Virus record (IMG/VR): IMGVR_UViG_3300036980_000283
Location: 1 to 30,476 of that record
Direction: 5' to 3' (one strand)
Length of the DNA: 30,476 nt
Source of the DNA: a virus
Part shown: piece by piece, positions 6,001 through 30,295 of the stretch
Position numbering within the stretch: the first letter of the stretch is position 1
Layout of the letters: every line of letters starts with the position of its first letter
Made by a program: the position numbers and the translations under genes
Notes under the pieces: model-generated
Told to the model about the DNA's origin: nothing
Databases searched by the model: none
Seen by the model: the letters and a program-made list of their open reading frames with translations, nothing else

Positions 6001-7203
6001 GGCGGTGGGATCAAGTGGCAAATTTGCCGCTTGATCCGGTTGGGTAATTTGCGAACCCGCATCTTGAACTGGCAACGGAGGGGGAGCGGTCAGCGGCGTT
6101 CCCGCTTGGGCTTCCACCCCGCCTTCCGAAGGGGACCGTAGACGTACGCCCCCGACCGCTTCTTCCCCAGTCCTAGCTTCTTGGCTCGGCGGATTAATGA
6201 TCGTTCCAGTGCTTTCGGCATTTTGTTCTCTTTCTCTTTGTGCGATCACCTGCGCGATTCTTGCACGGGATTCTTCCCTTGATTGTTTCTCTTCTCCCCG
6301 CCTAATCATGCTGCGACGAATCGGGACTCCCAGCGCCTGGGTCAACGAACTAAGCAGGAACCCTGTCGCACCGCCGACTCCAGAGTTGCCAACCACATCG
6401 TTGAACAGTCCTCGGTCCTTGTCGTAAAGCTCCTTCGCGGTCAAATTCTGGGCGAGCTGCTGAGCGCCCTCCTGCAACGCCTCTTCCAGCGTGTCCTTTC
6501 CAGCTTCGATGACGAACTTTGAGAATGTGCCTCCGGTCACGCCGTCCAGTCGGCGCATCATGCGAGCGAGCGGGAAAGCTTCGGACGTGCCCACGACGTT
6601 TCCGATTAGCGACGAAAGTTGGGCGGTGCCTTCGTCCGCGCCGCTGGCCTTCGCGTCGTTGTAGAAGTCAACGCCGCTCGCCGCCGATCCAAGTCCTCCG
6701 ATGGCGAGCCACTGCGGGATCTTCAGCAGCTTTCCGCCAAGTCCGCCAGCCATGAATCCGAGCGCTGAGCCAACCCCCTCGGGGAGCTTCGATGCCAGGA
6801 ACGATTCGTCGAGATCCTTTCTGGTCGTCGGGGCGATGGCGTCAGCTCCACTGCGGATGGCCTGCCCAAGCTGGTATGAGTAGCGCTGCGTTGGATCCGT
6901 CGCATCTCCTTCACCGACGATGGCATCGTTGCTTCCGGTGAGCCTGGACAGTCCGGATGCTGCGATTGCAAGCTGCTCCGGAAGCGAAGCCGCGACCCCC
7001 GCGGCACCCCTAATCAACTTTCCACCAACCTGCCTCGCGTAATCCGCCACCGATGGGCTTGCGATATCGGCGGACCTCGGCGGGGCCTCGCGCTTCTTTC
7101 GAAGCTCCTCCAGACCGTTGTAGTCCGCTACGATCTGCTCCGGCGTGTGCTCGTCTGGGAATGATACAACGCCGTACTGCCCACCAAGATCGACGTTTTG
7201 CAT
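1..7203 (-). CDS. Giant polyvalent / ejection protein with HExxGH motif and ADP-ribosyltransferase-like domain (3' partial)
   Basis: One uninterrupted minus-strand frame runs from ATG at 7203 to the left edge, giving at least 2401 residues with no stop. The start lies one base after the TGA of the upstream gene, so translation is probably coupled. The first 400 residues include Gly-rich hydrophobic helices (about 125-165) and a low-complexity Pro/Ala linker. Near residue 572 is LLLHESVGH, an HExxGH motif typical of metallopeptidase-like modules in phage polyvalent proteins. Residues about 712-1035 resemble ART-PolyVal: HHGTPHKVDRF, then GTGEGSQVYGWGLYF, then FLNDLGIKGIKYLD and YNFVIFNDSDI. 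The motif GGTxFAINP occurs twice, at 1053 and 1168. The rest is long, mostly helical and unassigned. Position at the end of the virion operon and size suggest a protein injected with the DNA. The domain calls are from recalled motifs; injection and enzyme activity are inferred. Confidence 0.85.
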   Translation of the reverse strand, partial: MQNVDLGGQYGVVSFPDEHTPEQIVADYNGLEELRKKREAPPRSADIASPSVADYARQVGGKLIRGAAGVAASLPEQLAIAASGLSRLTGSNDAIVGEGDATDPTQRYSYQLGQAIRSGADAIAPTTRKDLDESFLASKLPEGVGSALGFMAGGLGGKLLKIPQWLAIGGLGSAASGVDFYNDAKASGADEGTAQLSSLIGNVVGTSEAFPLARMMRRLDGVTGGTFSKFVIEAGKDTLEEALQEGAQQLAQNLTAKELYDKDRGLFNDVVGNSGVGGATGFLLSSLTQALGVPIRRSMIRRGEEKQSREESRARIAQVIAQREREQNAESTGTIINPPSQEARTGEEAVGGVRLRSPSEGGVEAQAGTPLTAPPPLPVQDAGSQITQPDQAANLPLDPTAAFAGYQFGMADRPTFQIPGARPGILRNVSAEDARAKGYTVPETIPTFEEWQATQAAPGAAVIASPALPAQAASIAETPIGWQEIGPAAAQPSIPSPRIQQIVSGITAGWANAPTVNVVDSVDQLPAHIKQRAVGLGLNRVAAVADGGNVWMVAGNITHEERARRLLLHESVGHIGVEAMFGNQGDFSKFMQGVADRHASTDLGKQVRDLYGVDPVTVGKEIVAKLAENPEVDPTLWQQIVAAVRNWVRRVFNLQVSDNDVQVLLKRGRRAVSASQAEQSNVIGRSRYFLESGGQVLRAKNATVIGPAMFAIEAHHGTPHKVDRFSLEKVGTGEGSQVYGWGLYFAQAREVAKEYANRLSGGVDLEIDGVRRPDLPVVQDPTSNPRAFGAWAVVLANGNVDEAVRALEQQANGRFVEDYEMEAFRAAADFAKQLRGKKVTSVSRGNEYTVSIEADPSEFLDWDKPFNEQSDFVKSALSSLTNEIEVTRKWNARIPLGAPGSIARLENENGSGQTIYKTVKRMLAGYPAAASEFLNDLGIKGIKYLDQFSRYAPVRSDFEVVSIQEMQRRLGKPVPSGFVNSKRAFIVKKGTGEEAYLAFPDHPVTGFKDVAAAQAELDKMAEKATYNFVIFNDSDIAITHENGQPVPMQEAMGGTSFAINPEESIRLVAVRNPETGVIAAGRGVSHMQLFEPAGHTPDSNVEFQHGWITNTGRFVTKKEADALRLNGEPEIIGQPLPELPSEFKRFPADVTRPFGYYVKEANPNTQPGGTRFAINPREPSAAFFPSRKKVEAAASNPGLTTSQIQEAQDLAAVQGSMVTQGMTGWLMGAAANKVEKRAQGILEHLLDRAFLSPTPRPLSSLPEGTTEEERTKELAGAMQLSHHALDREAGDKMDQNITALQAELNAAVAKTAKTTQAQHKANYLQAVLDNLTSDYKDYLVDLNATSPASANLQAQWRARLGVAEERLNDQVKSPTALKNGLSAIARTVPEALLQPGHTNQDIVNWVVSNNALFNVVGDSVKEWMTVDDGTGNPGLVGYTRLIPDLQTLKDILTKTAQVESDIDAFESWFKNSANTGKISAKAFAQKYHKFITGRDRALKIVAASEKEIDAIDEKLRANIMARDRLETMMSDPAYTAAVTEASAKADIVVRSIYDPTAPNAAPVGLINRDKSVGNWILKGPLSGEDYVVDLYPSSAGEEKNIQNLAAWVVEARQWAIGNTQADPLLADQYNSLANYIERHMMSPSMNPKSGFTQTRVRLPFTNIRIPIDPYDGITTVMGGIGYSFQTVRDVMERIGGRTMRQAFSDAATLDTVMRKVEAADANPTFGRAAQTQAVLKAVESHGWGPEQAVRWDEGIAEPVLAAGQNNLSPLYEVGDFVVGSGVRLTVEDLAAIKLMKRWNDAIIAAAPNSIQDRMGSLGITRKAIGNGRFTVPRIPAQWTEQFVGQWNAAKSDAEKLALLSTDESFRRVVLGYMAEFNTEFNKMNPASSDKSPMFEIYRRLADTEKSGVESFRTWDSVVQFLANEAVARGMYPDYVTATEAISKNLLTEIGGFITAYDNNVLQYKNTSVWGGVPDAIVSAISARNSFTTPRGTLQAPSTFYTYSTATAASQQRHTGSLRSFLNLKLLQSGAEATKALEMKKEQMRDRIKQLTNSGMESGQAGSTVQGETERARALNEIRFDYREILVALRAIEQSFGEVARYEKSSSDHYQHAGVAAANSVFGSIKSSLLSSLQAMTTNFWSGALLGPALAHWQAGQFGRAMGDIAIQPKVMASTLMKRVASLVEGNPVMSRLLRQHAPLWDGIAQSIIEASADWRRLQRIAQSSGMVNPYNIRKVLANQAALKSSAGLIVNDDPHILAEWTNRIMSAPGVRHATESLKATMPRTLDNAINYLLIVNWDRETEFLKKNGWVAFKAREDAAPGTGANWRDLTNKDNVLVPEDLGLKTNRALEWYQQLFSPHGSLDSVLLDFYERTKGMTEDQREAEPLFTDPNDHAAMAIQYA
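6010..6036. repeat. 27-bp near-palindromic repeat, copy 1 (inside giant gene)
   Basis: The element is centred on GGCAAATTTGCC and flanked by ATCAAG and CTTGAT arms. Including one more base on each side it forms a 30-bp palindrome with a single mismatched pair. It is read as QAANLPLD (about residues 390-398) in the minus-strand giant gene. Copy 2 at 29745-29771 is 26/27 identical, on the same strand, in an unrelated plus-strand gene. Confidence 0.8.
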
Positions 7204-7204
7204 G

Positions 7205-8659
7205 TCATTGCAGGGGTTGGTAGCCTGGATCCGTTGGGATGTATTCCGGCCTCAAGCCCTGGATATCCGAGGCGCGTGGGATTGATTCGGCGGCGTTGAT
7301 CTCGTCAATCACAGCCTGCCTCTGGTGCGGGGCGAGGAGTTTGAAGTTGGGGTGCTGAGCGAACCTGAGGAGGTCCCCGATGTCCCGGCGTTGAGGCGGC
7401 GGGTTCGCAAATGGAAGCGAATTGAATTTCCTGGAGGAATTCTGAGGGCCAAGCATTTCCCCGGCAGCCGGACGCCTCGGGTCAGACATGTCGATAAATC
7501 TCGGAGGCACCGCATCAATGTTCGACATCCGACGCGGGGCGCTTCCCGGCTTGAAATCCGACCCCATATATCCGAGCGGCTCCGGGGGGGCGTAGAAATC
7601 GGTCGTTCTTGGAACCGCAAAATCCGTTGATCTCGGAGCAAACCCTGGGCTTTCCTGGGGAACCACCACCGGGGATCCGATGTCCGAAACACGCACGGGG
7701 CCTTCAGGTATCACTCCAACAGGCCCAGGCTGCCGCAAAGGCGGAAGCGGAAGCGATGTTGGAGTATCGCTCCAAGCAGCCCCGCGATCCTGAAAAATAG
7801 TCCCCCCAGCCATTGACCTCGTGGGGCCGGTTTGGGCACTCGGCGCTCCCGGCGCAGCCCTTGAAGCCCCCGTCATTCTTTCCTGCATGTCGGCAATGGT
7901 TGGGAACGCTCCGCCTGTGGCCGGCGCATATGAAGGCGTCCCAGCATTTGGAGTCCCACCAATCACCTGGGACCTTCCTGGCGCTCCACCATTTGACACC
8001 GAACCAACTGAATCGGTCGGCTCGGCCGAATCCTCCCGAGGTGGGAGATATTTCGGCTGAACCGTGTTGCTGCTGCGATCGAAGATGACATCCTTGTCCC
8101 CATCAAGTCGCTTGTAGAGCCTCTCCAAGCCAGTCGCATCCGGGATCTTCGCTTTTTTAAAAGCGTCAAATTCTATGGTGTAGTTCTTCGCAGCCCGCGC
8201 GCTGTTGATGGAGTTTGCATTGGCAGCCTTGAAGATGTCCTCGCGAACAGATCTTGCGGCGCTTTTCTGGTCCTCGGTCAAATCCGGTCCGGCGGCGAAA
8301 AGCTTCTCAAGCTCCCGCTGGGTCGGCGGGTCCATGATGTTGTTGTTCAGCTTTTCGATTATCGTTCCGAACTGAAGCCTTGCGCGCTCCTTGGCTGCCA
8401 CATCACGGGTCCTGTCCGTGTCCAGCTTCTGGTTCGCAAGAACGATGTCCCGATGAAGTGCGTAATTCTCCCGCGTAACCTCACGATCCTTGTCGCGTTC
8501 GGCGATTTGAGACTGCGTAACATATCGCTGCTGGGCAGTGGCTTCGCGCGCGATGCGTTCACGGCTCGCGTTCTCAGCAGCGGCTGCGCGCTCCTGGATT
8601 TGGGCAATTGCCTGCCGCGCCGCTTCGGGGTTGGTGTAAACAAAGTCTCCTGCTGCCAT
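7205..8659 (-). CDS. Virion-associated protein with N-terminal coiled coil and proline-rich region
   Basis: 484 residues from ATG at 8659. The first 120 residues are highly charged and Ala/Arg/Glu-rich with clear coiled-coil character. About residues 120-210 are helical and charged. About 215-420 are low-complexity Pro/Gly/Ser/Thr with short near-repeats such as RSTDFAVP and RTTDFYAP. The last 60 residues form a short helical segment (DIGDLLRFAQHPNFKLL). No enzymatic motif is visible and no family is recognised. It sits directly before the giant ejection-type gene, separated by one base, and follows a 117-nt intergenic region that may carry its promoter. A role as an internal virion or scaffold-like partner of the giant protein is inferred from position only. 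Confidence 0.75.
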   Translation of the reverse strand: MAAGDFVYTNPEAARQAIAQIQERAAAAENASRERIAREATAQQRYVTQSQIAERDKDREVTRENYALHRDIVLANQKLDTDRTRDVAAKERARLQFGTIIEKLNNNIMDPPTQRELEKLFAAGPDLTEDQKSAARSVREDIFKAANANSINSARAAKNYTIEFDAFKKAKIPDATGLERLYKRLDGDKDVIFDRSSNTVQPKYLPPREDSAEPTDSVGSVSNGGAPGRSQVIGGTPNAGTPSYAPATGGAFPTIADMQERMTGASRAAPGAPSAQTGPTRSMAGGTIFQDRGAAWSDTPTSLPLPPLRQPGPVGVIPEGPVRVSDIGSPVVVPQESPGFAPRSTDFAVPRTTDFYAPPEPLGYMGSDFKPGSAPRRMSNIDAVPPRFIDMSDPRRPAAGEMLGPQNSSRKFNSLPFANPPPQRRDIGDLLRFAQHPNFKLLAPHQRQAVIDEINAAESIPRASDIQGLRPEYIPTDPGYQPLQ

Positions 8660-8776
8660 ACGTCATATTGGGTTTAGGGCCGCTTTCACATTGACTGTTT
8701 ACCCCCGATTTTGGTTTACTACCACAAGTAAATTGCCCCCCCCCGCGATGTTGAAGCATCCGAAAGCGCGGCACAT
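8660..8776 (-). promoter_or_regulatory. Intergenic region with inverted repeat and a G9 tract
   Basis: This 117-nt gap is unusually long for the leftward operon. Read on the minus strand it holds a run of nine G (8736-8744 on the plus strand as C9) followed by an 18-bp inverted repeat, TTTACT-N6-AGTAAA (8715-8732). GTTTAC also recurs just beside it (8696-8701). No convincing -35/-10 pair was found. A promoter or operator for the two large downstream genes is likely from spacing but not shown. Confidence 0.35.
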
Positions 8777-10024
8777 CTAGATCGGATTGCCGGCCGCGTC
8801 ATGTTGAAAAACCCAATCTTTGTCCATGAGCTTCTTCATCATATTCAGTGCGTGGTGCTCGCCCCCGCACAGAAGCGCAACCATATGGTAAAGGCGGTTT
8901 CCGCTCATCCTCATCAGGTCGGCCATCTGGCGTCGATGCGCTAAAGGCGACCGCTCCCATTCCACCGAGATTGAATAATTATTGGTTACGTCAAGAATCA
9001 ACGGGAAAAGCATCTCGGCATTTTGACGATAGAACGTCGTGTTGTACATGACGCAAGCGCAGAAAAATATGGATACGATCTGCGCCTTGCTAAGCGTTGG
9101 CCTGCCATCCTCCATTTGATCGACGCAATCGTCGAGTCCGTGGATCAGTCCGAAAAACAAATCGCAAAACGCCATCGCCTCCGTATTCCCACAGCAAAGC
9201 TCCGCGTTCCACGCTCGGGCCAGTTGTGAATCCTCCTGCGTGATTGGAGCGATTACGTTCTTCCCGTCGAACGTCGGCTGCCTCGCTGCCCAGTAATCTT
9301 CGTGCCACCTCCAGAGGCCGCGCCCAAGTTCCGGATTCTTCAGGATGGCCTCGCGCGCCACCTGCATCTGCGCTCCGTTGTTCAGGCGTGGCAGGACAAT
9401 ATCCGAGATCGTTCCGAAATGAAGGTGTGCGTAGGAATTCTTCTGCGCATCCGTAAACGCCGTCCCTCCGATGGCGTGATAGAGCAGGGAAGCAGTGTCG
9501 TGAAAGTATCCGCGGCCGTTAAGCGGTTGGCAGACCGGGTAAATCAGGTTCTCCAGCGGGTTGAACGGCGTCACCGGGAACTGCGCCTCGTAGGCTTTGA
9601 CCTGCTCGCGGACCTTCACGGGGTCAATAAAGAGCAGCGACGTATGCAGGCGAGAGCGCGTAATGGCGTTCGCGAACTCATCGAAGAACTCAGGGATGCG
9701 ATACCCGGCCAGCGCGGTGTCAAACTTCCAATCCTCGATCTTCTCGTAAAACACCATGTCCGTATCCACCAGCCAGAACGGTTCCTGCTCATCCCGGACA
9801 ATGCCCTCAATCCATCGGTGGTGAATAGTTAGATCGCCGTCGTGCGGAATAACTCCAACTCCGTCTACCGCCTCCTCTAACCTTTCAATGTCCGAAGGTG
9901 AAAGCCCGTTCCCGTAAACGTGGATTGTTGCAGTTGGGAACCCGATCCGTAGCGTCTTGAACACGAGGAAGCTCATCGGCTCAAGCTCCGGCTTCCGGCA
10001 GGTGACGAGGATGTGGGCGTTCAT
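8777..10024 (-). CDS. Glycosyltransferase-like protein with C-terminal helical domain
   Basis: The preferred start is ATG at 10024, which overlaps the upstream TGA as ATGA; an upstream GTG at 10069 would add 15 residues. The product is 415 residues. The N-terminal half looks like a GT-A nucleotide-sugar transferase: NAHILVTCRKPEL at the start, then PFWLVDTDMVFYE with a D87-T-D89 motif of the DxD type that binds metal and nucleotide sugar, followed by a conserved-looking acceptor half (HDTASLLYHAIGG, HLHFGTISD). About residues 265-415 form a helical Cys-containing domain (LCCGNTEAMAFCDLFFGLIHGLDD) of unknown role. It follows a cupin gene inside a virion operon, so its target may be host surface glycans or a virion component. 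The fold call rests on the DxD motif and general pattern, so the substrate is unknown. Confidence 0.7.
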   Translation of the reverse strand: MNAHILVTCRKPELEPMSFLVFKTLRIGFPTATIHVYGNGLSPSDIERLEEAVDGVGVIPHDGDLTIHHRWIEGIVRDEQEPFWLVDTDMVFYEKIEDWKFDTALAGYRIPEFFDEFANAITRSRLHTSLLFIDPVKVREQVKAYEAQFPVTPFNPLENLIYPVCQPLNGRGYFHDTASLLYHAIGGTAFTDAQKNSYAHLHFGTISDIVLPRLNNGAQMQVAREAILKNPELGRGLWRWHEDYWAARQPTFDGKNVIAPITQEDSQLARAWNAELCCGNTEAMAFCDLFFGLIHGLDDCVDQMEDGRPTLSKAQIVSIFFCACVMYNTTFYRQNAEMLFPLILDVTNNYSISVEWERSPLAHRRQMADLMRMSGNRLYHMVALLCGGEHHALNMMKKLMDKDWVFQHDAAGNPI

Positions 10025-10362
10025 GGGGCTGTGAAATCTACTGCTGCTGAAGTCGGGTCTCCGGTCCACCGTTCAACATTCGCGAACAGGCAGAACCGGC
10101 CAGTAACCGTTGCATCGTGAACCGTCCCGGCGGGGATGTGGAAGCGTCGCCCGAAGTCGTACCAGCCGGTGCGCCCCCGCCGCCCTTCTCCAATGCGACC
10201 ATCCATCTCACCGCCAAGAATTATCAGGGTGGAGTCAATCTTGTGGTGGACGTGAGGCTCGATGACTTCCCCGCGTGGGCACCAGACGAGTTCAACCTGG
10301 CACCTGCGGAACCTGAAAACTACAAACGCCACGCAGCCGTTATGGCGGTGGACGAATCGCAT
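10021..10362 (-). CDS. Small cupin-fold protein
   Basis: ATG at 10362 lies one base after the upstream stop, matching the spacing of neighbouring genes, and gives 113 residues; a GTG at 10422 would overlap the previous gene by 59 nt. Both cupin motifs are visible: G31 followed by H37-V-H39 in motif 1 and P77-A-G-T-V-H82 in motif 2, with a G-x-x-D-G turn between them. The three histidines could hold a metal ion. Small cupins act as sugar epimerases/isomerases, dioxygenases or plain binding proteins; which applies here cannot be told. The gene is coupled by ATGA to the glycosyltransferase-like gene, suggesting a shared task in sugar modification (inferred). Confidence 0.75.
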   Translation of the reverse strand: MRFVHRHNGCVAFVVFRFRRCQVELVWCPRGEVIEPHVHHKIDSTLIILGGEMDGRIGEGRRGRTGWYDFGRRFHIPAGTVHDATVTGRFCLFANVERWTGDPTSAAVDFTAP

Positions 10363-10363
10363 A

Positions 10364-11275
10364 TCAACGGAACGGCGCTGAATAACCGCCAGTTGGCGTT
10401 GCGATGCTTTGGTACATGCCACCGGCCCCTGGATAAATCGACCCAGCCGCAGGCGCTCCGCCTCCGCCTCCGCCGCCTCCGCCTTCCCCTCCGCCCATCC
10501 CGCCGATGGAGCTCAGTGCGCCCTGAGCCAGATTCATGATGCCCTGCTCCTCTGCGGCCATTGTACTGCCAAGCCGATCTGCGAAATTACGGGGCGTCTT
10601 GAATCCCTGCGTCGCCGCATTGACATTTCCAATGGCCTGCCCTGCGAGGTTCCCGCCTGCGCCAGCCGTTGAGATTCGATTCATGATGCCCTGAGTCGGT
10701 CGTCCGGAAACCGCCTCGTAGCCCGCTGATATCTGCGGAACGAACCCGGCCGCGGCGAAATCGTTGGCTTGCCCTTGGGCCGCGGCGGAGTTGAATAGCT
10801 GGGGAACCACGTTGTAAACATTCCGCGCCACGTCGTAATATCTGCCGCTGGCAACCCTGGCATTCCTCAATCGTTCAGCCGTGGAGTCGATGGCACCCGG
10901 ACTGATCCCTCTCGCGCGCTGCGCAAGGATGTTCGAGTTGACGTCAAACCTTGCAAGCGGGGAAACGACGTTGGGGTCGATCTGAGAGAACGCCGTTTGG
11001 AAGATGTTGGCGAGATTCTGGTTGGGATCGTCTGCGAGCCTTCTGTTCAGCAGCGTGTTCAGCACGTTCTCCTGCTGACCGGCAAGCCCCTCCTGCCTGC
11101 CCTGGCCGGCCATGTAAATATCATACGCCAACTGCCCGCCAGGAATTAATCCGCGGAGCGTATTGGCGGCAAGCGCAGCGCCAGCCCGAGCGACTGGTGC
11201 AGTGTAGCGGTTCAGGATGGCCTTGGGTGGCTTGTCTGAGCCTAACAACCCCTGGATTACATTACCTGCTGGCAT
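10364..11275 (-). CDS. Putative internal virion protein, Ala/Gly-rich
   Basis: 303 residues from ATG at 11275, preceded by an A/T-rich stretch and a 94-nt gap. The N-terminus (MPAGNVIQGLLGSDKPP) leads into Ala/Asn/Gln-rich helices. Near the C-terminus there is a strong Gly tract with about ten glycines in a row after GGMGGGEG, then a Tyr/Ser/Pro-containing tail. There is no enzymatic motif, signal peptide or recognised family. Ala-rich helical proteins between the tail nozzle and giant ejection genes are common in podoviruses as internal or ejected virion proteins, which is the basis for this call. The Gly tract is encoded by repetitive GGC/GGA codons and may vary in length. Confidence 0.65.
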   Translation of the reverse strand: MPAGNVIQGLLGSDKPPKAILNRYTAPVARAGAALAANTLRGLIPGGQLAYDIYMAGQGRQEGLAGQQENVLNTLLNRRLADDPNQNLANIFQTAFSQIDPNVVSPLARFDVNSNILAQRARGISPGAIDSTAERLRNARVASGRYYDVARNVYNVVPQLFNSAAAQGQANDFAAAGFVPQISAGYEAVSGRPTQGIMNRISTAGAGGNLAGQAIGNVNAATQGFKTPRNFADRLGSTMAAEEQGIMNLAQGALSSIGGMGGGEGGGGGGGGGAPAAGSIYPGAGGMYQSIATPTGGYSAPFR

Positions 11276-11369
11276 AAATTAAAGTTTTCCATTATTTCCG
11301 GGTGTCGATCGACCCGTATGGCACCCATTCAGTCAACTCCCAAATTCGCTGGTTAGCAAGGCGCGATTG

Positions 11370-11792
11370 CTAGATCTTCCCAAGCCTGCGATGTTCGGCC
11401 TTTAGCAAGTCTTCGTAAGCGTCCAATCCAGCAGCATCAAAATGCCCTTCGCAGGTAGTGCGTCGCTTCGTTTCCCCGCCATGAATTACCGTGTACGAGC
11501 ACGTCGAAAACATCTCGCATCCCGGCACGTCGCACAACGATTTAGGAAGCTGTTCAGAAACGCTTTGCTCGCAACCCTGGATGGCAAAATCTGGAACCAT
11601 GTGGCCTGCATCGCGATGCAGCAGCAGATGCTTGAGGGCGTCCCGATACGAAAACAATCTCACGCCGGGACGGGTCTTTCTGCTGTCGAAGTTCTGACTT
11701 CCGCCGAGCTTGCACTCCTGGCAGACAATAAATCCGTGGCCGTGCTCGTAGAGGTACACGTCCGATTCTGGTGAGTATCGCACTATCGACAT
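11370..11792 (-). CDS. Cys/His-rich small protein, putative zinc binding
   Basis: Start chosen at ATG 11792, 5 nt past the TAG of the upstream gene; the longer frame from 11894 would overlap that gene almost entirely. The product is 140 residues. It has two Cys/His clusters: C24-x2-C27 with H55, H59 and H64 (CQEC, then HLLLHRDAGH), and C87-x4-C92, C98 and C114-x2-H117 (CDVPGC, then CEGH). This spacing fits two zinc-binding units, the first like a split C2H2 finger. The C-terminus is a charged helix. It is not recognised as a named family. Its place among virion genes leaves it open whether it is structural, a DNA-binding protein, or a regulator expressed late. Confidence 0.7.
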   Translation of the reverse strand: MSIVRYSPESDVYLYEHGHGFIVCQECKLGGSQNFDSRKTRPGVRLFSYRDALKHLLLHRDAGHMVPDFAIQGCEQSVSEQLPKSLCDVPGCEMFSTCSYTVIHGGETKRRTTCEGHFDAAGLDAYEDLLKAEHRRLGKI

Positions 11793-11797
11793 GGCTT

Positions 11798-12013
11798 CTA
11801 TTCCCCCACCGGTCCTGCTCCTCCCAGGTTGGCGACCATCCGTTCGAGCGCTTGCACGTCCCGCTGGCGCATGAGCTTCATTTGATCGATCCACTCCCTG
11901 ACCCCTGGAAGCTTCAGCATCTGCTGCGGGGGTTCGGGAAGCGGGGAGAAATGAATCTCAAGCACCTGGTCCCGGCGCAGGCTTCTGCGTGAAAGTTCGA
12001 TGGCTTTACTCAT
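11798..12013 (-). CDS. Small charged helical protein
   Basis: 71 residues from ATG at 12013, overlapping the stop of the nozzle-like gene as ATGA. The protein is rich in Arg, Leu, Glu and Met; residues about 38-62 (REWIDQMKLMRQRDVQALERM) should form one amphipathic helix. No family is recognised. The tight coupling on both sides supports it as a real gene of the tail module. Confidence 0.65.
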   Translation of the reverse strand: MSKAIELSRRSLRRDQVLEIHFSPLPEPPQQMLKLPGVREWIDQMKLMRQRDVQALERMVANLGGAGPVGE

Positions 12014-15030: not shown

Positions 15031-15034
15031 CGGG

Positions 15035-15830: not shown

Positions 15831-15831
15831 A

Positions 15832-16680: not shown

Positions 16681-16683
16681 CGG

Positions 16684-17133: not shown

Positions 17134-17168
17134 CGCATGACTTTCATTTGCCCAACCATTAAACAGAC

Positions 17169-17200
17169 CGCCCCGGAATTGCAACAACAACTCCGGGGCG
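17169..17200 (-). terminator. Terminator-like hairpin downstream of the capsid gene
   Basis: Nine perfect base pairs (CGCCCCGGA with TCCGGGGCG) enclose a 14-nt loop, 57 nt past the capsid stop. On the minus strand the hairpin is followed by a weak T tract (TCTGTTT), which suggests a leaky intrinsic terminator. The position is like that of the T7 terminator after its capsid gene, where partial read-through lowers expression of tail genes. It could also protect mRNA ends. Confidence 0.6.
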
Positions 17201-20633: not shown

Positions 20634-20650
20634 AGCGTCGGGTGTGACAA

Positions 20651-20950: not shown

Positions 20951-20964
20951 TCAGTAATCGTCAA

Positions 20965-23436: not shown

Positions 23437-23466
23437 AAAAGAATGTGATGCAGATTATAACCTCTT

Positions 23467-23793: not shown

Positions 23794-23861
23794 AGCAATC
23801 GAACCATCCACACTCGAACCGGGTTGTGCAACTACCAATTCCCGTGTTTAACTTCCCCGCC
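23794..23861. promoter_or_regulatory. Divergent intergenic region between structural operon and terminase
   Basis: This 68-nt gap separates the first gene of the leftward structural block from the rightward terminase. Both arms would need promoters here or further upstream. GTTG-N2-CAAC forms a short dyad, and GGTTCGA occurs twice on the minus strand. No consensus -35/-10 pair stands out, so a phage-specific promoter is possible. Confidence 0.35.
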
Positions 23862-25412
23862 ATGATCAAAGTCGATGCGCGCGGATTCGTTTATTCAACG
23901 GATGGGCACTTCCTTCCACCGATGAATCTCAAGCAATACGAAATCTTCGAGGATTACCACAGATACCTTTTGGTCCACGGCCCGCGCATGTCTGGAAAGA
24001 CGTTCGGAATCATTCACCGGGTCCTGCGCCACGCCTTCGATGTTGACGGGGCGATGATTGCGATCGTCTGCAAGACTCTTAAGAACGCCAAGAGCGCAGG
24101 CGTGTGGCTTCTCCTCTGCCGAATGATCAAGTACTGGGAAAAGCACTGCAAGGGGTTCGCGGTAGTTGAAGGCCCGAAGACCGCGGGAGATACAAAGCTG
24201 TCGTTCGTTCGCGTGCGGGGCCGCAACGGGAACATATCTGAAATTCAATGTCACTCCCTGGAGCACGCGCAGGAGGTGGAGGCGAAGTTCAAGAGCTCCG
24301 CATACTCCATGTTCTGGCTGTCCGAACTCGATCAATTCTGCACGGAGCACGCCTTCGACATCTTCTGCGATGCGCTGCGCATGACTCCGTTCATTCCGTT
24401 CGAGATGCATCAGATTATTAGCGACTGTAATCCTCCCGATAGCGGAACCCAGAACTGGATCCACGACAAATGGTTCAAGTTCAAGGACGCTGAGATGCGC
24501 GGGGAAGACACCGAGAAGACACTCCGCTCGAAACAGCATCTTCACAGAATCCTCGCGATGATTGAAGACAACCCCCAGCTGGCCCCCGAGGCGAAGGACG
24601 ATTTGATTGAGCGATACCGGAAGCGGCCGGTGTTCTACAATCGGTTCGTGAAGGGGATATGGGAGGCGGCGCTCACCGATGGCCACTTCACCGAAATCTG
24701 GGATGAAGCAATTCACGTTCTTGGAAAGGACGACGGCCCCGAGGATGAGAACGAATTCATCATCCCAACCGCGGGGTGCCGCACGCTGCTCACGGGCTGG
24801 GATCTTGGAGAGTCAAAGAACCATTCGTTCCACATTCTTGAGAAGATCATCAACGAAGATCCAAAGACCAAACGCCAAATCGTTTCGTTCACCGCGCTGG
24901 ACGAGGTGATCAACGTGCGAAATTACATGTCGATCAAGGAGTTCGCACAGCTCTGCATGGAGCGCATTGAGTTCTGGGAGAAGTGGCAGCTTGAGCACCA
25001 GAAAATCGAACTCAACTGGCGTCACTGGTCGGACACGTCGGCGTTTCCCGATCGCGCATCCGCGGACAAGAGTGACTCCGCAATCGTTCACGAAGCGAGC
25101 CACGGGAGAATAATCCTGGAGGGCGCGCCAAAGTATGCCGGATCCAATCGAGACAAGGTTGGACTGCTCCAGGAGTTCTTACAGCAGCGCCGGCTTTTTG
25201 TTTCCGCACAACTGCACGCGACCAGGGCGATGTTTGCGAATCTCAGGAAAGACCCTACGTCGGTTGCCCACTTTGTGCAGCGAAGCGATCACAAGCACCC
25301 ATTCGACAGTCTGTCGTATCCGATCATTGCGGAGGCCCCCTCTGACATGTTGAAGGGTACGAGAATCGTTACCGCCAACAAGGAGCGTCCAGCCGGGCTG
25401 GTCTTTGCGTGA
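23862..25412 (+). CDS. terL: Terminase large subunit
   Basis: 516 residues; ATG at 23862 is preferred over one 36 nt upstream that overlaps the divergent leader. The N-terminal ATPase has a Walker A G40-P-R-M-S-G-K-T47 and a Walker B-like stretch around MFWLSELDQF (151-158). The C-terminal RNase H-like nuclease shows its acidic residues in order: D314 in LLTGWDLGESK, D391 in HWSDTSAF and D482 in HPFDSLSYP. It would drive ATP-dependent packaging through the portal and cut the DNA. It is transcribed away from the portal operon, whereas these genes are usually co-directional. No small terminase gene was recognised nearby. The family call is strong. Confidence 0.92.
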   Translation: MIKVDARGFVYSTDGHFLPPMNLKQYEIFEDYHRYLLVHGPRMSGKTFGIIHRVLRHAFDVDGAMIAIVCKTLKNAKSAGVWLLLCRMIKYWEKHCKGFAVVEGPKTAGDTKLSFVRVRGRNGNISEIQCHSLEHAQEVEAKFKSSAYSMFWLSELDQFCTEHAFDIFCDALRMTPFIPFEMHQIISDCNPPDSGTQNWIHDKWFKFKDAEMRGEDTEKTLRSKQHLHRILAMIEDNPQLAPEAKDDLIERYRKRPVFYNRFVKGIWEAALTDGHFTEIWDEAIHVLGKDDGPEDENEFIIPTAGCRTLLTGWDLGESKNHSFHILEKIINEDPKTKRQIVSFTALDEVINVRNYMSIKEFAQLCMERIEFWEKWQLEHQKIELNWRHWSDTSAFPDRASADKSDSAIVHEASHGRIILEGAPKYAGSNRDKVGLLQEFLQQRRLFVSAQLHATRAMFANLRKDPTSVAHFVQRSDHKHPFDSLSYPIIAEAPSDMLKGTRIVTANKERPAGLVFA

Positions 25413-25444
25413 AATAAAAGGCCGGCACCTTTCGATGCCGGCCT
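25411..25444 (-). terminator. Intrinsic terminator of the single minus-strand gene
   Basis: GGCCGGCA (25420-25427) pairs perfectly with TGCCGGCC (25436-25443) around an 8-nt loop, with one more A-T pair outside. On the minus strand the stem is followed by TTTTATTT, the classical intrinsic form. It lies 16 nt past the stop of the 25460-25957 gene and directly after the terminase stop, so it could also slow transcription arriving from the terminase side. Confidence 0.85.
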
Positions 25445-25459
25445 GGGGCTGGAGAAGAA

Positions 25460-25957
25460 TTAGACGACCGGCTTCGGTTCCGGGGTGCCGGCAGCGAGAC
25501 CGAGGTTTTTGGCGGCGGCACCGACGACGCTGAGCTTGATGACGTCGCTGATTTCTTCAACTCCGTCGCCGAGATCTGCGTCAGCCCTCACAAGGATTTC
25601 GGTGTCTCCCGGATCGTCTGCGCTGACCAGGGTCGCGGACAGTCCGCCGTCAGCGACAACGAGCCTGGAGTTTCCAGAGATGATCGTCCACGCCGGACTT
25701 CCATCCAACGCCGCGGGTTTTCCGGTATCGGTTCTCGGAGTGAGGGTGACAGCGATTTGCTGCTCGTTCGTGATTTTCAGTTCCAGTGGCATGTTTTTAC
25801 CTTTCGTTTTTGGTTGACCGATGATGAATCCAAATCCGCAGGAGCGTCGGTCATTGTCGCCGCCATTGGAGAGAGCCTTGAGAATCAACTTATCCGTGGC
25901 AAGAATGTCCTTGAGAGTTCTTTCAACTCGATGTTCCCAAGATGGACGTTCTGGCAT
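25460..25957 (-). CDS. Ig-like small phage protein (possible 55-residue N-terminal extension)
   Basis: From ATG at 25957 the product has 165 residues; an internal ATG at 25792, preceded by AAAGG at a good distance, gives 110 residues. The 110-residue part is a beta-rich, probably Ig-like unit: MPLELKITNEQQIAVTLTP, then GSPAWTIISGNSRLVVADGG, GDTEILVRADADLGDGV and a C-terminal Pro/Glu tail. Similar small proteins are recalled from many phages, usually without a proven role. The first 55 residues include a charged helix (RVERTLKDILATDKLILKAL) that could be a separate small protein or a true extension. The gene stands alone on the minus strand with its own terminator, between terminase and the recombination genes. 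Confidence 0.65.
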   Translation of the reverse strand: MPERPSWEHRVERTLKDILATDKLILKALSNGGDNDRRSCGFGFIIGQPKTKGKNMPLELKITNEQQIAVTLTPRTDTGKPAALDGSPAWTIISGNSRLVVADGGLSATLVSADDPGDTEILVRADADLGDGVEEISDVIKLSVVGAAAKNLGLAAGTPEPKPVV

Positions 25958-26018
25958 TGCAATTGAATTTGATTCGGGACAACGGCAATCGCAACAGTAA
26001 AGATTTTCAAAATTCCCC

Positions 26019-26047
26019 TTGACCGACTTAACTGATTAGCTTATTCG
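26019..26047 (+). promoter_or_regulatory. Candidate promoter for the regulator gene
   Basis: TTGACC (26019-26024) is a 5/6 match to the -35 consensus, with TATTCG 17 nt downstream as a weak -10 (3/6). Transcription would begin only a few bases before the ATG at 26059, giving an almost leaderless mRNA. The left arm of the inverted repeat fills the spacer, and the -10 touches the right arm. Confidence 0.4.
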
Positions 26048-26055
26048 TTAAGTCG
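26024..26055. promoter_or_regulatory. Inverted repeat, likely operator for the XRE regulator
   Basis: CGACTTAAC (26024-26032) and GTTAAGTCG (26047-26055) are perfect 9-bp inverted arms with a 14-nt spacer, ending 3 nt before the ATG of the helix-turn-helix gene. The 23-bp arm-to-arm spacing is about two helical turns, as for a dimeric or paired repressor site. Autoregulation is inferred. Confidence 0.65.
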
Positions 26056-26058
26056 CAC

Positions 26059-26310
26059 ATGCCAACCACTATCAAAATCAAAGGGGTATCGAAGTTCGGA
26101 TGCGAGTTCTGCCGGCGCGAGGTCGATAACCGAAGCCTCGGACTTGATCTCGCCGAGGAGCGGGAAAAGCTCGGGCTCTCCCAAGCGGATATGGCCCGGA
26201 TGCTCAAGATCTCAGCGCCGTTCGTTTCTGATTTGGAACACGGAAAGAGAAACTGGACCCCGAGGATGGTCGAACGATACGTCTCCGCACTGCGCGGATC
26301 TAAACCATAA
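26059..26310 (+). CDS. XRE-family helix-turn-helix regulator
   Basis: 83 residues from ATG at 26059. The C-terminal two thirds are an XRE/Cro-type helix-turn-helix: LAEEREKLGLSQADMARMLK with the recognition helix around APFVSDLEHGKRNW and a closing helix RMVERYVSAL. The first 25 residues hold a single C15-E-F-C18 pair, which might form half of a zinc site in a dimer. It is the first gene of the rightward recombination operon and sits directly behind an inverted repeat, so it probably represses its own promoter and possibly the divergent minus-strand gene. The N-terminal CxxC recalls MqsA-like antitoxins, but only one pair is present and no toxin partner is seen. Confidence 0.85.
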   Translation: MPTTIKIKGVSKFGCEFCRREVDNRSLGLDLAEEREKLGLSQADMARMLKISAPFVSDLEHGKRNWTPRMVERYVSALRGSKP

Positions 26311-26320
26311 CCAAACCCCT

Positions 26321-26608
26321 ATGACAAACTTATCGAAATCCGATCTGCTGAACAACGAGCTCGCTCATACCCACGGAGGAATTGGATGGGCGACGGTGGA
26401 AATTATCGACGACGACTACGTTCGCGTCATGGATAAGTCCGCCATCAGGCATCAGGCTTTTCTGGCAGCCGTGAGCCACCTGTCCATCAGGAAACCACTG
26501 AGCCCAGAAGACTATGAGGTCCTGAATCCAGTTCGAGAAGGCCTCGCCAACGGAACCAGCGAGGTCATTGGATCTCACATTCTTTCCGTATCAACTCCGC
26601 CCCACTAA
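26321..26608 (+). CDS. Small protein of unknown function
   Basis: 95 residues from ATG at 26321. A longer frame starting at 26144 overlaps the regulator gene out of frame and is rejected. The product is mixed, with a beta-like segment GIGWATVEIIDDDYVRVMD and a helical segment QAFLAAVSHLS. No family or motif is recognised. It lies 10 nt after the regulator and 11 nt before RecT, with an A/C-rich leader (CCAAACCCCT) similar to that of the next gene. Co-transcription with the recombination genes is expected. Confidence 0.7.
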   Translation: MTNLSKSDLLNNELAHTHGGIGWATVEIIDDDYVRVMDKSAIRHQAFLAAVSHLSIRKPLSPEDYEVLNPVREGLANGTSEVIGSHILSVSTPPH

Positions 26609-26619
26609 CCAACAAAACC

Positions 26620-27702
26620 ATGACAACACCCGCACCATCATCCGAAGTCGCCATCCGAAATCCGAAAGATCTTCAGGCGTACCTGTCCAAGAGTCTTCCG
26701 GCGATCGAAATGGCCCTCCCCAAACACCTCAACGCCAATCGCATGATGCGCCTTGCGATGACGTGCTTCTCCACTACGCCAGCACTTCAGGGATGCACGC
26801 CACGGAGCATCCTCGCATCGGTCGTGGTGGCCTCGCAGCTTGGCCTTGAGCCGGGGATTGCCGGGCAGGGCTACCTCATCCCGTACAAGGGCACCTGCAC
26901 GTTCGTTCCTGGCTGGCAGGGGTTGGTGTCGCTGCTCAATAATACCGGGCGCGCGACCGCATGGACCGGGGCGGTCTTCGAGGGGGACCACTGGGACTTC
27001 GAACTCGGAAGTCGCCCCCGCTGCCAGCACATTCCCGGTGATAATTACGGGGATCCCGACAAGCTGACCTGGGTTTACGCCTGCGGGAAGGTCAACGGAA
27101 GCGAACAGCCTGTCATTGAAGCATGGCCGATGGGGCGCGTCTGGAAGCACCGGGACAAGTTCAACAAGGTCGGAACACGGCATTACTCCTACCAAAATGA
27201 GGAAATGTACGCCCGCAAGGTGGTCCTCTTGCAGGTTTTGAAGTACATGCCGAGGTCCATAGAACTCAACAACGCGATCACCGCCTCTGATGCCGCCGAA
27301 ATGGGGAGGGCTTCACGGGTCGAGGATTCGGTTGTCGTAATTGATTCAGAGGCGTTGGACATTCCCGGGTCTCCTCCGAAGTTTGATGCCCCTAAACCGA
27401 TTGCAGACACCACCAGCCCGGGTCCTAAATCCGAAGGGCCTACTGAGCCGGGCCCCACGACTCCAATGAACCCCGTAAGGCAGAAGCTGGTCAACGCCGG
27501 GGTCACGTTCTCAAGGTTTACTCAGTGGTGTGTTAGCACGGGTCGCGCCGCGGATGCGCACTCGTGGTTTACCGCGGCCGAAGCCGATGGGCTTGCTGGT
27601 GAGCGGCAGTACGACAAGGCACCAAAGGCAATCTGGACCGCACTTGAGCTGGACGACATGGGGGTTTCCAAGTGCATCACTCTTAACGGAGGAGGCGCAT
27701 GA
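26620..27702 (+). CDS. recT: RecT-family single-strand annealing protein
   Basis: 360 residues from ATG at 26620. The conserved RecT core covers about 20-235: LPKHLNANRMMRLAMTCF, then ILASVVVASQLGLEPG, QGYLIPYKGTCTFVPGWQGL and YARKVVLLQVLKYMPRS. RecT proteins anneal complementary single strands during phage recombination and replication. The region after about 240 is a Pro/Ser-rich linker, followed by a separate C-terminal unit (PVRQKLVNAGVTFSRFTQW) that may bind a partner such as a single-strand binding protein. Two genes on lies a RecE-like exonuclease, the usual partner. The gene overlaps the next one as ATGA. Confidence 0.92.
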   Translation: MTTPAPSSEVAIRNPKDLQAYLSKSLPAIEMALPKHLNANRMMRLAMTCFSTTPALQGCTPRSILASVVVASQLGLEPGIAGQGYLIPYKGTCTFVPGWQGLVSLLNNTGRATAWTGAVFEGDHWDFELGSRPRCQHIPGDNYGDPDKLTWVYACGKVNGSEQPVIEAWPMGRVWKHRDKFNKVGTRHYSYQNEEMYARKVVLLQVLKYMPRSIELNNAITASDAAEMGRASRVEDSVVVIDSEALDIPGSPPKFDAPKPIADTTSPGPKSEGPTEPGPTTPMNPVRQKLVNAGVTFSRFTQWCVSTGRAADAHSWFTAAEADGLAGERQYDKAPKAIWTALELDDMGVSKCITLNGGGA

Positions 27703-28043
27703 TTCCAGCTCATCTCCAAAACTTCATCTCGGCATTCAACCACGTTGCGCAGCTTGCACATAACAATGCTGTTGCGAAGGGATTCTGGGACAACCCCGAG
27801 GATGACCTCGCGAAGATCTGCAAGATGCACGAGGAACTGTCGGAAGCGTGCAGCGCCGTCAGGCACGGAAACCCTCCGGACGATAAGATTCCGGAGTTCT
27901 CCGGCGTGGAAGCGGAATTGGCAGACTGCATCGTCCGCATCATGGACTTTGCGGCCGGAAGGAACCTTCGGGTTTCGGAAGCGCTTATCTCCAAAATGGA
28001 GTTCAACAAGAGCCGTCCGCGTCTTCACGGAAAGCTGTCGTAA
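27699..28043 (+). CDS. MazG-like nucleotide pyrophosphohydrolase
   Basis: 114 residues from ATG at 27699, overlapping the RecT stop as ATGA. The all-helical MazG/NTP-pyrophosphatase pattern is present: H44-E-E-L-S-E49 in one helix and E73-L-A-D76 (EAELADCIVRIMDFA) in the next, giving the ExxE and ExxD metal-binding pairs. The length fits single-domain phage members. Such enzymes hydrolyse nucleoside triphosphates to monophosphate and pyrophosphate; in phages they may clean the dNTP pool or lower alarmone levels. The next ATG follows its TAA directly (TAAATG). Confidence 0.85.
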   Translation: MIPAHLQNFISAFNHVAQLAHNNAVAKGFWDNPEDDLAKICKMHEELSEACSAVRHGNPPDDKIPEFSGVEAELADCIVRIMDFAAGRNLRVSEALISKMEFNKSRPRLHGKLS

Positions 28044-28946
28044 ATGAAAACGTTCGTTCCAAACACGGAGGGGATCTTTTTCGATCTTCCATTCGAAGAG
28101 TATCGAAAGGCCCCAGGAATCAGCCAGTCCACGCTGAAGGCGTTCATGGCTGAACCGACACCGAAGCACTTCGTTGAGTCTTCGTCCAGGCCAGCGAAGT
28201 CCACTCCGGACATGGAATTTGGAACGGTGCTTCACGCTTCCATCCTGACACCGGAAGGCGCGAAGCCGTATCACCTTCAACCAAAGACCTACACGACGAT
28301 TTCCGGGGGCAAGAAAGGCGACCCGGACAGGGTGGTTGAAAAGCCGTGGCACGGCGGCGCGGACGCGTGCAAGGAATGGATGAAGACCCACTCGGACCTT
28401 CCCATCATTGATGAGGAGCAGGAGAAAAAGATCCCGACAATTATCGAAACCGTCCGGGGCCTGCCCGTGGCCGGAGACATCATCGACTGCGGCCAAAAGG
28501 AGGTTTCATTCTTCAAGCGGGATGAAGAGACCGGGATCCTATTGAAATGCCGCGTTGACGCCATGGCCACGGACACGTCCGGATCCACGCACATCTGCGA
28601 TCTCAAAAAGGTGAGGCGCGGATATGCGGACTCCGAGCGATTTGCCGTGACGTGCGTGGAGCGCGGGTACGACATTCAGTGCGCCTCCTACCTCAGCATC
28701 ACCGGGGCCACCAAGTTCATGTTTGTCGCCATTGAAGATGAACCCCCGTTTGAGGCGGAGGTCTATGAGATGGACAAGGATTTCTTTCTCCTCGGGTTTT
28801 CAAAGTGGCGGAAGGCTCTTGAGCGATTTGCGAAAGTCATGGCCAGCGGAGAATGGAACGGATACCTAAGGTCTGTTAAAAAACTCAAGGCACCATATTG
28901 GGCAAAAGATATGGATAAGCCTATACCGGAATCCATATATATATGA
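28044..28946 (+). CDS. RecE-like PD-(D/E)XK exonuclease
   Basis: 300 residues from ATG at 28044, directly after the previous stop. The N-terminus (GISQSTLKAFMAEPTPKHF) and FGTVLHASIL with H64 match the RecE/exonuclease VIII-like group. The catalytic core shows ILLKCRVDAM with D172 and HICDLKKVR with D186-x-K188, the D...DxK arrangement of PD-(D/E)XK nucleases, then a helix with a Tyr/Gln pair (YDIQCASYL) as in lambda-type exonucleases. It would degrade one strand at DNA ends to give tails for RecT. Family assignment is confident; the exact strand polarity is from family knowledge. The last codons are AT-rich and overlap the next gene as ATGA. Confidence 0.88.
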   Translation: MKTFVPNTEGIFFDLPFEEYRKAPGISQSTLKAFMAEPTPKHFVESSSRPAKSTPDMEFGTVLHASILTPEGAKPYHLQPKTYTTISGGKKGDPDRVVEKPWHGGADACKEWMKTHSDLPIIDEEQEKKIPTIIETVRGLPVAGDIIDCGQKEVSFFKRDEETGILLKCRVDAMATDTSGSTHICDLKKVRRGYADSERFAVTCVERGYDIQCASYLSITGATKFMFVAIEDEPPFEAEVYEMDKDFFLLGFSKWRKALERFAKVMASGEWNGYLRSVKKLKAPYWAKDMDKPIPESIYI

Positions 28947-29254
28947 ATATAAAAACCATACCTGCGTTCCCAGTTGCATTCGTTCAGGGATCGGATCCCG
29001 CCGGAGCAGATGTAGAGCCCGGCGAGCGCGGGATGAGCCTTCATCAATACTACGTGGGCCAGGCCCTTGCTGGGCTTTCCGGGACGATGGAATTTTTACT
29101 GGCCGCCCTCAACGACGCGAAGGCAATCGAAAAAGCGACGATCCAGGAGCTCATCGCCAAGGCCGCCGTTCGCGTTGCGGATGCCACAATTGCCGAGCTT
29201 GAGGGGCGCATCGACAAAACAAACTCCGACTTGACACCCACGAGCGGGAAGTGA
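28943..29254 (+). CDS. Small conserved phage protein
   Basis: 103 residues from ATG at 28943, overlapping the exonuclease stop as ATGA. The central part PGERGMSLHQYYVGQALAGL is the pattern of a widespread small phage/prophage protein (GM-x-LR-x-Y-x-A-x-x-A) recalled from many genomes without an established function. The C-terminal half is a helix (ATIQELIAKAAVRVADATIA). The -35 of a candidate promoter for the next gene lies within its last codons. Confidence 0.75.
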   Translation: MNIKTIPAFPVAFVQGSDPAGADVEPGERGMSLHQYYVGQALAGLSGTMEFLLAALNDAKAIEKATIQELIAKAAVRVADATIAELEGRIDKTNSDLTPTSGK

Positions 29255-29260
29255 TTTAGT
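29231..29260 (+). promoter_or_regulatory. Sigma70-like promoter
   Basis: A perfect TTGACA (29231-29236) is followed after 18 nt by TTTAGT (29255-29260, 4/6 to consensus). Transcription would start near 29267, about 145 nt before the ATG of the ParB-like gene, so the structured element at 29301-29410 would form the leader. This is the best sigma70-type promoter noticed in the window. Confidence 0.6.
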
Positions 29261-29300
29261 AAACGCACGGCACCTGAAAGCGCCACCTGACATGAATCGT

Positions 29301-29410
29301 GTTTCATCTCTGAACTCACCAGTCTGCGCCCGTCGGCTTTACGGCCGTGCGAGTTGTCTGTCCTCGCCTTTTCAGGGCGGGCGTCGGACTGGTGAACTCA
29401 CGGATGAAAT
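29301..29410 (+). ncRNA. Candidate structured RNA / 5' leader with three-way junction
   Basis: Nested helices can be drawn by eye: 29302-29308 with 29403-29409 (7 bp); 29316-29324 with 29387-29395 (9 bp); 29327-29332 with 29378-29383 (6 bp); then two hairpins, 29334-29337 with 29344-29347 (4 bp) and 29349-29353 with 29363-29367 (5 bp), for 31 pairs in all. The outer helix ends one base before the ATG of the ParB-like gene, so it could control translation. TGAACTCAC also occurs as a direct repeat (29311 and 29393). It lies downstream of a candidate promoter. The known class, if any, is not recognised; a DNA-level role such as a protein binding site is also possible. Confidence 0.6.
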
Positions 29411-30295
29411 ATGAAGGACTACGAAAACCACCCACTGTCAGAACTGTTCCCGATTATCTCGGCGGCGGAAATCAAAGACTTGGCCGAGGACATCAAAGAA
29501 CGAGGACTCCAATCGCCCATCGTCCTCTACGAAGGAAAAATTCTCGACGGTCGCCACCGATACGAGGGGTGCAGTCAGGCGGGAGTAACGCCAAAGTTCG
29601 AGACTTACGACGGCGACGATCCGGTAGGGTTTGTTTTTTCAGCAAATCTTCGGCGGCGACATTTAACCGACGGTCAGCGGGCCATGATCGCGGCAAGGCT
29701 GGCAACAATGACGCATGGCGGGGACCGAAAAAGCGAAGGCAGAAATCAAGTGGCGAATTTGCCGCTTGATCAAGAGAAGGCCGCAGAAACATTGGATGTT
29801 TCGCCGCGCTCCGTGCGCGTGGCCAAGACGGTTATGGACGCTTCTCCGAAGCTCACGAAGCAAGTCGATGCCGGGAAACTTTCCCTCAACGCCGCGCACC
29901 AGCAGGTCAAGGCGAAGGAGAAAGCGAATGGCGAGCCCGTCCTCGACGATACCGACTTCGAGATCCCGCCTGGTCGCGTTGAGATTTGGGCGCGCCGCGG
30001 AGAGGTCCGCGACATCGCAAATCAAATTGCGAACATCCAGAACAGGCTCATCGCCTACCAGGAGGCGAAGGACGAATTGTTCTCCGGCGTAAGCGTGGCG
30101 TCGGTCGTGGAGCGTCTGCGCTACGTTTCCCAGCAACTTCGTGGCGTTCAGCTTCATGCCGTGTGCCCGTCCTGCGGGGGCCGAAACTACAAGAACTGCA
30201 CGGACTGCAAGGGGCGCGGGTTCCTTTCCAAGTTCGCGTGGGAGCGGGTGCCCGATTCGATTAAGGAAGTTCGGTCTAAGGCATCCAAAAAATGA
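29411..30295 (+). CDS. ParB-like nuclease-domain protein with C-terminal zinc finger
   Basis: 294 residues from ATG at 29411. The N-terminal ParB/sulfiredoxin-like domain covers about 5-95, with LSELFPIISAAEIKDLAEDI, then GKILDGRHRYEGC (the GxxR phosphate/nucleotide motif) and ANLRRRHLTDGQRAMIAARL. HGGDRKSEGRNQVANLPLDQ and a helix-turn-helix-like AAETLDVSPRSVRVAK follow. A short helical part leads to a DnaJ-like CxxC pair: C252-x2-C255 and C263-x2-C266 with G268 and G270. ParB-domain proteins bind DNA and CTP or act as nucleases; which applies here is unknown. The segment reading NQVANLPLD is coded by a near-palindrome shared with the giant gene. ATGA overlap with the helicase suggests a role in replication or DNA handling. 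Confidence 0.85.
   Translation: MKDYENHPLSELFPIISAAEIKDLAEDIKERGLQSPIVLYEGKILDGRHRYEGCSQAGVTPKFETYDGDDPVGFVFSANLRRRHLTDGQRAMIAARLATMTHGGDRKSEGRNQVANLPLDQEKAAETLDVSPRSVRVAKTVMDASPKLTKQVDAGKLSLNAAHQQVKAKEKANGEPVLDDTDFEIPPGRVEIWARRGEVRDIANQIANIQNRLIAYQEAKDELFSGVSVASVVERLRYVSQQLRGVQLHAVCPSCGGRNYKNCTDCKGRGFLSKFAWERVPDSIKEVRSKASKK
29745..29771. repeat. 27-bp near-palindromic repeat, copy 2 (inside ParB-like gene)
   Basis: 26/27 identical to 6010-6036, differing at 29755 (G instead of A). It encodes about residues 112-121 of the ParB-like protein, just before its helix-turn-helix-like segment. Because the element is nearly symmetric, both strands read Q-x-ANLPLD. Confidence 0.8.

Follow-up and report, generated by a model that had tools for sequence, protein, structure and literature searches.

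In this study, we analyzed IMGVR_UViG_3300036980_000283, an IMG/VR virus record of 30,476 bases (hereafter the window, to whose whole stretch all coordinates refer). An original prediction, made from the letters alone, had pointed there to the same near-palindromic DNA element inside two unrelated genes, one of which encodes a ParB-like protein. Our results indicate that this palindrome is probably the DNA-binding site of the ParB-like protein whose gene holds it. The features on which this interpretation is based are the following:

29411 to 30295, plus strand: ParB-like gene of 294 amino acids, made up of an N-terminal domain, a linker, a helix-turn-helix (HTH) and a helical C-terminal part (translation, PHROG ParB-like families, Foldseek).
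29411 to 29707, plus strand: ParB-type N-terminal domain, residues 1-99 (modelled with high confidence; profile and Foldseek matches).
29708 to 29770, plus strand: linker with the site, residues 100-120 (low model confidence, with a predicted local distance difference test score, pLDDT, of 53-59, falling below 50 at residues 110-112).
29745 to 29771, no strand assigned: linker copy of the near-palindrome, ATCAAGTGGCGAATTTGCCGCTTGATC, in the ParB-like gene, encoding NQVANLPLD.
29804 to 29842, plus strand: recognition helix of the HTH, residues 132-144, in which P132, R133, R136 and V137 correspond to the residues of homologs that covary with the half-site.
6009 to 6038, no strand assigned: second copy of the site, a near-palindrome of 30 bp with the sequence GGATCAAGTGGCAAATTTGCCGCTTGATCC, set in frame within the polyvalent gene on the minus strand and encoding DQAANLPLD.
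1 to 7203, minus strand: gene of a large polyvalent protein of 2401 amino acids that runs off the record (translation), holding the second copy.

The repeat listing confirmed that the copies at 6010-6036 and 29745-29771, 23.7 kb apart, are identical at 26/27 positions on the same strand. The translations of the open reading frames (ORFs) likewise agreed with the original prediction in that the two genes are unrelated and read in opposite directions (a minus-strand frame at 1-7203 and a plus-strand ORF at 29411-30295) and in that both copies keep the frame and encode Q-x-ANLPLD, which they do because the centre of the palindrome is a codon border on either strand. The placement of one copy directly before the HTH of the ParB-like gene also held, as it occupies codons 112-120 and the AlphaFold2 model puts the HTH helices at residues 121-127 and 132-144. 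A scan of the whole record with up to 3 mismatches returned these two places only, and the reversed pattern, used as a control on the same 30,476 bases, gave zero matches. The copy in the polyvalent gene, which widens to the 30-bp near-palindrome listed above, is nearer to a perfect palindrome than the copy in the ParB-like gene, which is less perfect and has a G at half-site position -3 of its left arm. This second copy falls within a proline-rich, apparently unstructured stretch of the polyvalent protein, for which we obtained weak matches to ART-PolyVal and, among the PHROGs, to virion RNA polymerase and DarB-like antirestriction proteins; the most plausible interpretation of the copy is an additional site bound by the same ParB-like protein. 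In the AlphaFold2 model of the latter, the N-terminal domain and the HTH are confident and the residues encoded by the site fall in the low-confidence linker. Its top structural matches in Foldseek are Spo0J, KorB, ParB and Noc (E about 1e-5), and the profile matches of its N-terminal domain are Spo0J, Noc and ParB chains. The protein has the N-terminal domain of the ParB/Spo0J family and, judged from the model and from the half-site/helix code described below, an HTH that would read a palindrome.

Special attention was given to the conservation of the linker palindrome among homologs. Exact DNA scans located further in-frame occurrences of CAAGYGGCAAATTTGCCRCTTG, translated as DQ[A/V]ANLPL, in ParB-like genes of the GGDR(R/K)S type from distant bacteria and phages; such scans cannot separate DNA conservation from protein conservation because their matches are selected by the sequence itself. 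An 18-base pattern used to scan contigs was too short, mixing chance and terminator-like palindromes (e.g., in Flavobacterium) with real matches, and a codon-degenerate pattern gave only 5 matches in 385 alphaproteobacterial genomes. Phage homologs were consequently collected with linker-blind queries, namely N-terminal-domain alignments (A1-A3) that end before the linker, and the removal of near-duplicates left a set of 110 homologs from viral contigs, many of them incomplete. Close homologs were few when 289 genomes were searched with an alignment of the same type, and the many distant ParBs retrieved had no linker palindrome. A palindrome with a score of at least 6, a threshold that, like the gap penalty of the palindrome finder, was picked after a first look at the data, is present in the linker of 99 of the 110 homologs, and in most of them its location, immediately ahead of the HTH, is the same. 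Its sequence differs between phages, with AAATTT, CAATTG, GAATTC, CACGTG or CCCGGG centres in various frames; the core GCAAATTTGC, for example, is translated as ANL in one frame and as QIC in another. When each linker was compared with synonymous-codon shuffles that preserve the protein and its codon usage, palindromy was in excess at p<=0.05 in 82/110 homologs and at p<=0.01 in 59/110; control segments of the same genes reached p<=0.05 in 1/110 cases for the N-terminal domain and in 3/109 for the downstream segment. The varied centres, the use of two reading frames and the excess over shuffles argue that selection acts on DNA symmetry, not on the peptide. Separately, the linkers of Acidovorax phage AP1 and of the phage isolate ctsTn925 (L435 and L436) carry an odd-centred inverted repeat of the GGGCACTGAGTGCCC type, with a partial second copy in ctsTn925.

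The bases of the half-site, numbered from the palindrome centre, were each compared with every column of the homolog alignment, whose column numbers are used here. The best single column is a recognition-helix position for bases -3, -5, -6 and -7, with an excess mutual information of 1.06 bits between -6 and column 128, 0.85 between -3 and column 129, 0.69 between -5 and column 125, and 0.46 between -7 and column 124; for base -4, a linker column that the palindrome itself encodes ranks first (0.76) and column 125 ranks second (0.61). The correspondence can be read residue by residue: in column 128, A goes with T at -6 (19/20), K or R with G (27/31), and E or Q with C (23/24); in column 129, R goes with C at -3 (26/27) and S, A, T, H or N with A (61/62); R in column 125 goes with GC at -5/-4 (66/67); and in column 124, R goes with G at -7 (18/20) and E mostly with C. 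It is important to note that two controls lessen the contribution of shared ancestry to these figures and do not eliminate it. In 49 disjoint pairs of nearest neighbours, paired by the N-terminal domain only, a recognition-helix residue is likewise the leading column for each of -3, -4, -5 and -6 (p 0.003 to 1.5e-6), and for -7 the expected column ranks second. When all relatives of at least 60% identity were excluded, the helix predicted -6 correctly in 74/92 cases (baseline 6), -3 in 87/94 (baseline 62) and -7 in 54/95 (baseline 28), with only a small gain for -5 (77 vs 72) and -4 (82 vs 75); under this exclusion, the protein's own half-site has a median rank of 2 among 38, against a background of 9. 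A close chromosomal homolog fetched later (L440) also fits the code, with K/A/E/R in the helix and ACCTCAA as half-site. In the crystal structure of Caulobacter ParB, R173 bonds guanine 1 of parS (PMC7383237); by our own alignment and numbering, R173 falls in column 124 and guanine 1 at -7, the same rule as that for R in column 124.

Taken together, the palindromy of the linker and the half-site/helix code lead us to conclude with high confidence, at a probability of roughly 0.88, that the ParB-like protein binds the palindrome lying in its own gene, and the covariation between recognition helix and site gives strong support to the binding-site explanation offered by the original prediction. 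All of this evidence is computational: the conservation of palindromy, its position and the residue-base code were computed, and from them we infer binding. Each recognition helix of a protein dimer would sit on one half-site of the palindrome, which lies just 5' of the HTH in the DNA that codes for an unstructured linker, and the bound protein would load as a ParB-type clamp at the site. Reader and site would be inherited together in less than 150 bp, so that the specificity of both could shift together.

Several observations weigh against this interpretation. Residue V137 of the window has no counterpart in the homolog set, and the left half-site of the copy in the window's ParB-like gene is atypical (rank 17 of 38). 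Palindromes under the threshold were found in 11/110 homologs, 5 of which have an inverted repeat with an arm score of at least 7 if an unpaired centre of 2-8 nt is allowed, and the plasmid cousins pCAR1, Rts1 and pMKPA34-1, with a shorter linker, are without the site. The ParA partner of ParABS systems was not found either: the ParA model PF13614, the one model tried, matched in 0/50 contigs, which may be fragments, with positive controls in 14/14. Finally, the site shows no AT-rich stretch and no sustained GC dip, and the gene holds no iterons and 19 extra half-sites vs 13.1 expected; the missing AT-rich stretch and the few extra half-sites leave an origin function without direct support.

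The number of copies also bears on what the element is. In the contigs of 24 relatives, read whole or nearly whole, a well-matched site occurs only in the gene itself and is the single match in 22/24; the other two contigs (L163 and L194) have one further match each, with 2 mismatches in 16. Bacterial genomes mostly have 1-2 copies of the site each. Because the site is nearly always single in relatives, the second copy of the window, 26/27 identical, is unusual. Searches of viral contigs with three proteins of the window taken singly, namely the ParB-like protein, TerL and the polyvalent protein, returned no relatives.

Other explanations were weighed on the same data. The recurrence of ANL in many homologs, and two near-identical copies in unrelated genes of the window, could suggest respectively that Q-x-ANLPLD is kept for the protein with the palindrome as a codon by-product, or that a mobile palindromic element, like the Rickettsia palindromic elements, inserts in frame. 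The protein-level explanation is extremely improbable, given that synonymous shuffles of the same proteins seldom yield the palindrome, that the linker segment has low confidence in the model, and that the linker residues are wholly different (ANLP, QICA, SIEA, PIGG, APRG) with palindromy constant. The original prediction would have been refuted by homologs encoding ANLPL with varied, non-palindromic codons, and we found the opposite: palindromy is maintained across homologs whose amino acids differ. Its proposal of a mobile palindrome fared poorly, as homologs keep the palindrome at its place with different sequences and relatives are essentially single-copy. Although the same 22-bp palindrome also appears in non-ParB contexts of distant genomes, we consider mobility very improbable: homologs share palindromy and position only, host genomes mostly have one copy, the sequence of the site tracks the recognition helix, no pair of empty and filled sites was seen in closely related genes, and the single sequence family in many dispersed copies that characterizes such elements was not found.

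A purely structural role of the element as a hairpin, in mRNA or as a cruciform, for instance as a translation pause or an RNase site, would account for the pairing of the arms kept across homologs and for the short unpaired centre of some of them. This explanation is nonetheless highly unlikely, as the arms adjoin without a spacer in 79/92 of the linkers whose inverted repeat is strong, and the match to recognition-helix residues would be left unexplained; the idea of an RNA hairpin in particular was rejected on the types of mismatches, which lack a G-U bias (GT/TG 18/116 vs AC/CA 32/116 on the sense strand).

The genes that surround the binding site offer some indication of its use. Two further features of the window belong to this context:

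26620 to 28946, plus strand: genes of a RecT-like annealing protein and exonuclease VIII (PHROG), upstream in the same module.
30292 to 30476, plus strand: start of a helicase-like gene with an MPTGTGKTQ motif (translation), directly 3' of the ParB-like gene, at which the record ends.

The ParB-like gene stands directly before a helicase gene in the window as well as in phages LE1 and AP1. ResIII matches were obtained in 12/50 contigs, several of them directly downstream of the ParB-like gene, and the order ParB-like, SF2 helicase, primase was seen in two contigs examined, one of which has an exonuclease and an annealing protein before it. A DPPW-type motif of MT-A70-like methyltransferases is present in the same frame in 51/110 homologs, and the MT-A70 domain of one bacterial homolog (L110) was confirmed by Pfam. 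Inferred from this context, the site most likely serves either as a single phage landing pad beside helicase/primase genes, in the manner of an origin or of a parS-like clamp-loading site, or as an autoregulatory road-block, the two being about equally probable; both uses sit within the binding-site explanation, and our estimates for them are not alternatives to it. Taken singly, an operator inside the gene, acting as a roadblock and not as an origin or clamp-loading centre, is a tentative proposal: the site is the only match and lies inside the gene in 22/24 relatives, and Foldseek places the ParB-fold repressor KorB among its top matches, but the site is about 330 bp into the gene and not at a promoter, and the window has a second one in a distant gene. 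A replication origin or helicase landing pad with the ParB-like protein as initiator is proposed just as tentatively. The gene order described above and the location of lambda ori within gene O (PMC4488673) speak for it, and the lack of iterons and of an AT-rich stretch, and the methyltransferase motif that about half of the homologs carry instead, speak against it. Just 5' of the start of the ParB-like gene, at 29297-29414, we also observed an inverted repeat of 28 nt, imperfect and enclosing 62 nt, as a possible operator or structured leader.

Palindromes were additionally observed in clusters. The IMG/VR contig 3300048578_000217 (L130) has, at about 494-725, an in-frame array of different palindromes (ACCTTCGGCAAATTTGCCGAAGGT, CGTGCACATGTGCACG, CAAGCGGCAAATTTGCCGCTTG, CAAACCGCCAATTGGCGGTTTG and ACGCAAATTTGCGT) close to the start of a putative terminase small-subunit gene. 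Three of these palindromes have 8-bp half-sites in common with sites of different ParB-like family members, and the whole is possibly a decoy or multi-site array. In Methylocaldum sp. 14B (L107, about 4540-4760), palindromes with a common AAATTT core and differing self-complementary arms are spaced by about 60 bp, and a CGCGCGTGTGGGTGCCGT-like stretch is repeated between them. Two or three palindromes like those of the ParB family, differing in their arms or centres, also stand close together in L033 (about 5760-5940) and L125 (8344-8399).

Sites of DNA-binding proteins inside their own genes are already known singly, in lambda O/ori and as parS in spo0J; in B. subtilis, one parS lies inside spo0J itself. 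The ParB/Spo0J-parS (ParABS) and Noc-NBS systems resemble the phage family in their ParB-type N-terminal domain and HTH, their short palindromic site, the specificity residues in the recognition helix, and the arginine-guanine rule described above; the phage family differs in that no ParA was found, the site varies with the helix without a shared consensus, and its place in the gene, before the HTH, is fixed. KorB of RK2 and other ParB-fold repressors share the fold, the HTH and a palindromic operator, KorB being a transcriptional repressor; KorB operators lie in promoter regions, whereas the site of the phage family lies within coding sequence. Lambda O/ori is also alike in that a phage DNA-binding protein has its site in its own gene, as do 99/110 homologs, whose role as initiators is putative, and in its neighbouring replication genes, seen in a subset of the homolog contigs; ori-lambda comprises four 19-bp iterons together with an AT-rich stretch, whereas the ParB-like family has one palindrome, no AT-rich stretch and an unrelated fold. 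In repABC, palindromic parS sites of a ParB homolog lie in the rep/par operon (PMC9040568) and follow a fixed family consensus, GTTNNCNGCNGNNAAC, in contrast to the gene-by-gene covarying site of the ParB-like family. We also observed a RepB-like ORF (L447) with two identical in-frame GTTTACAGCTGTAAAC palindromes (FTAVN) at minus-strand offsets 1475 and 2216, near both of its ends, which fit the repABC parS consensus. A survey of domain fusions of the ParB-CTPase fold includes phage ParB-fold proteins fused to methyltransferases, of the same broad family, and a word search of that paper found no mention of palindromes (PMC12704722). In the open-access literature searched, we found no report of a family with its site built in before the HTH and covarying with it.

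A gene that holds both a DNA reader and its DNA turns public sequences into a large natural experiment on how an HTH specifies bases, with four residues that carry information on five bases of the half-site in distant phages. It also gives a concrete handle on the binding targets of orphan, ParA-less phage ParB proteins, and it is a case of DNA-level selection in a protein-coding linker that a normal alignment would take for a protein motif. As a tentative view of the family as a whole, these phage ParB-fold proteins may be self-addressed initiators or landing-pad proteins, each gene a lock-and-key unit with an origin- or parS-like site beside the helix that reads it. Specificity may then drift, or be swapped by recombination, with the target kept, and other phage genes, such as those with the second copy of the window and the array of L130, may carry extra or rival sites.

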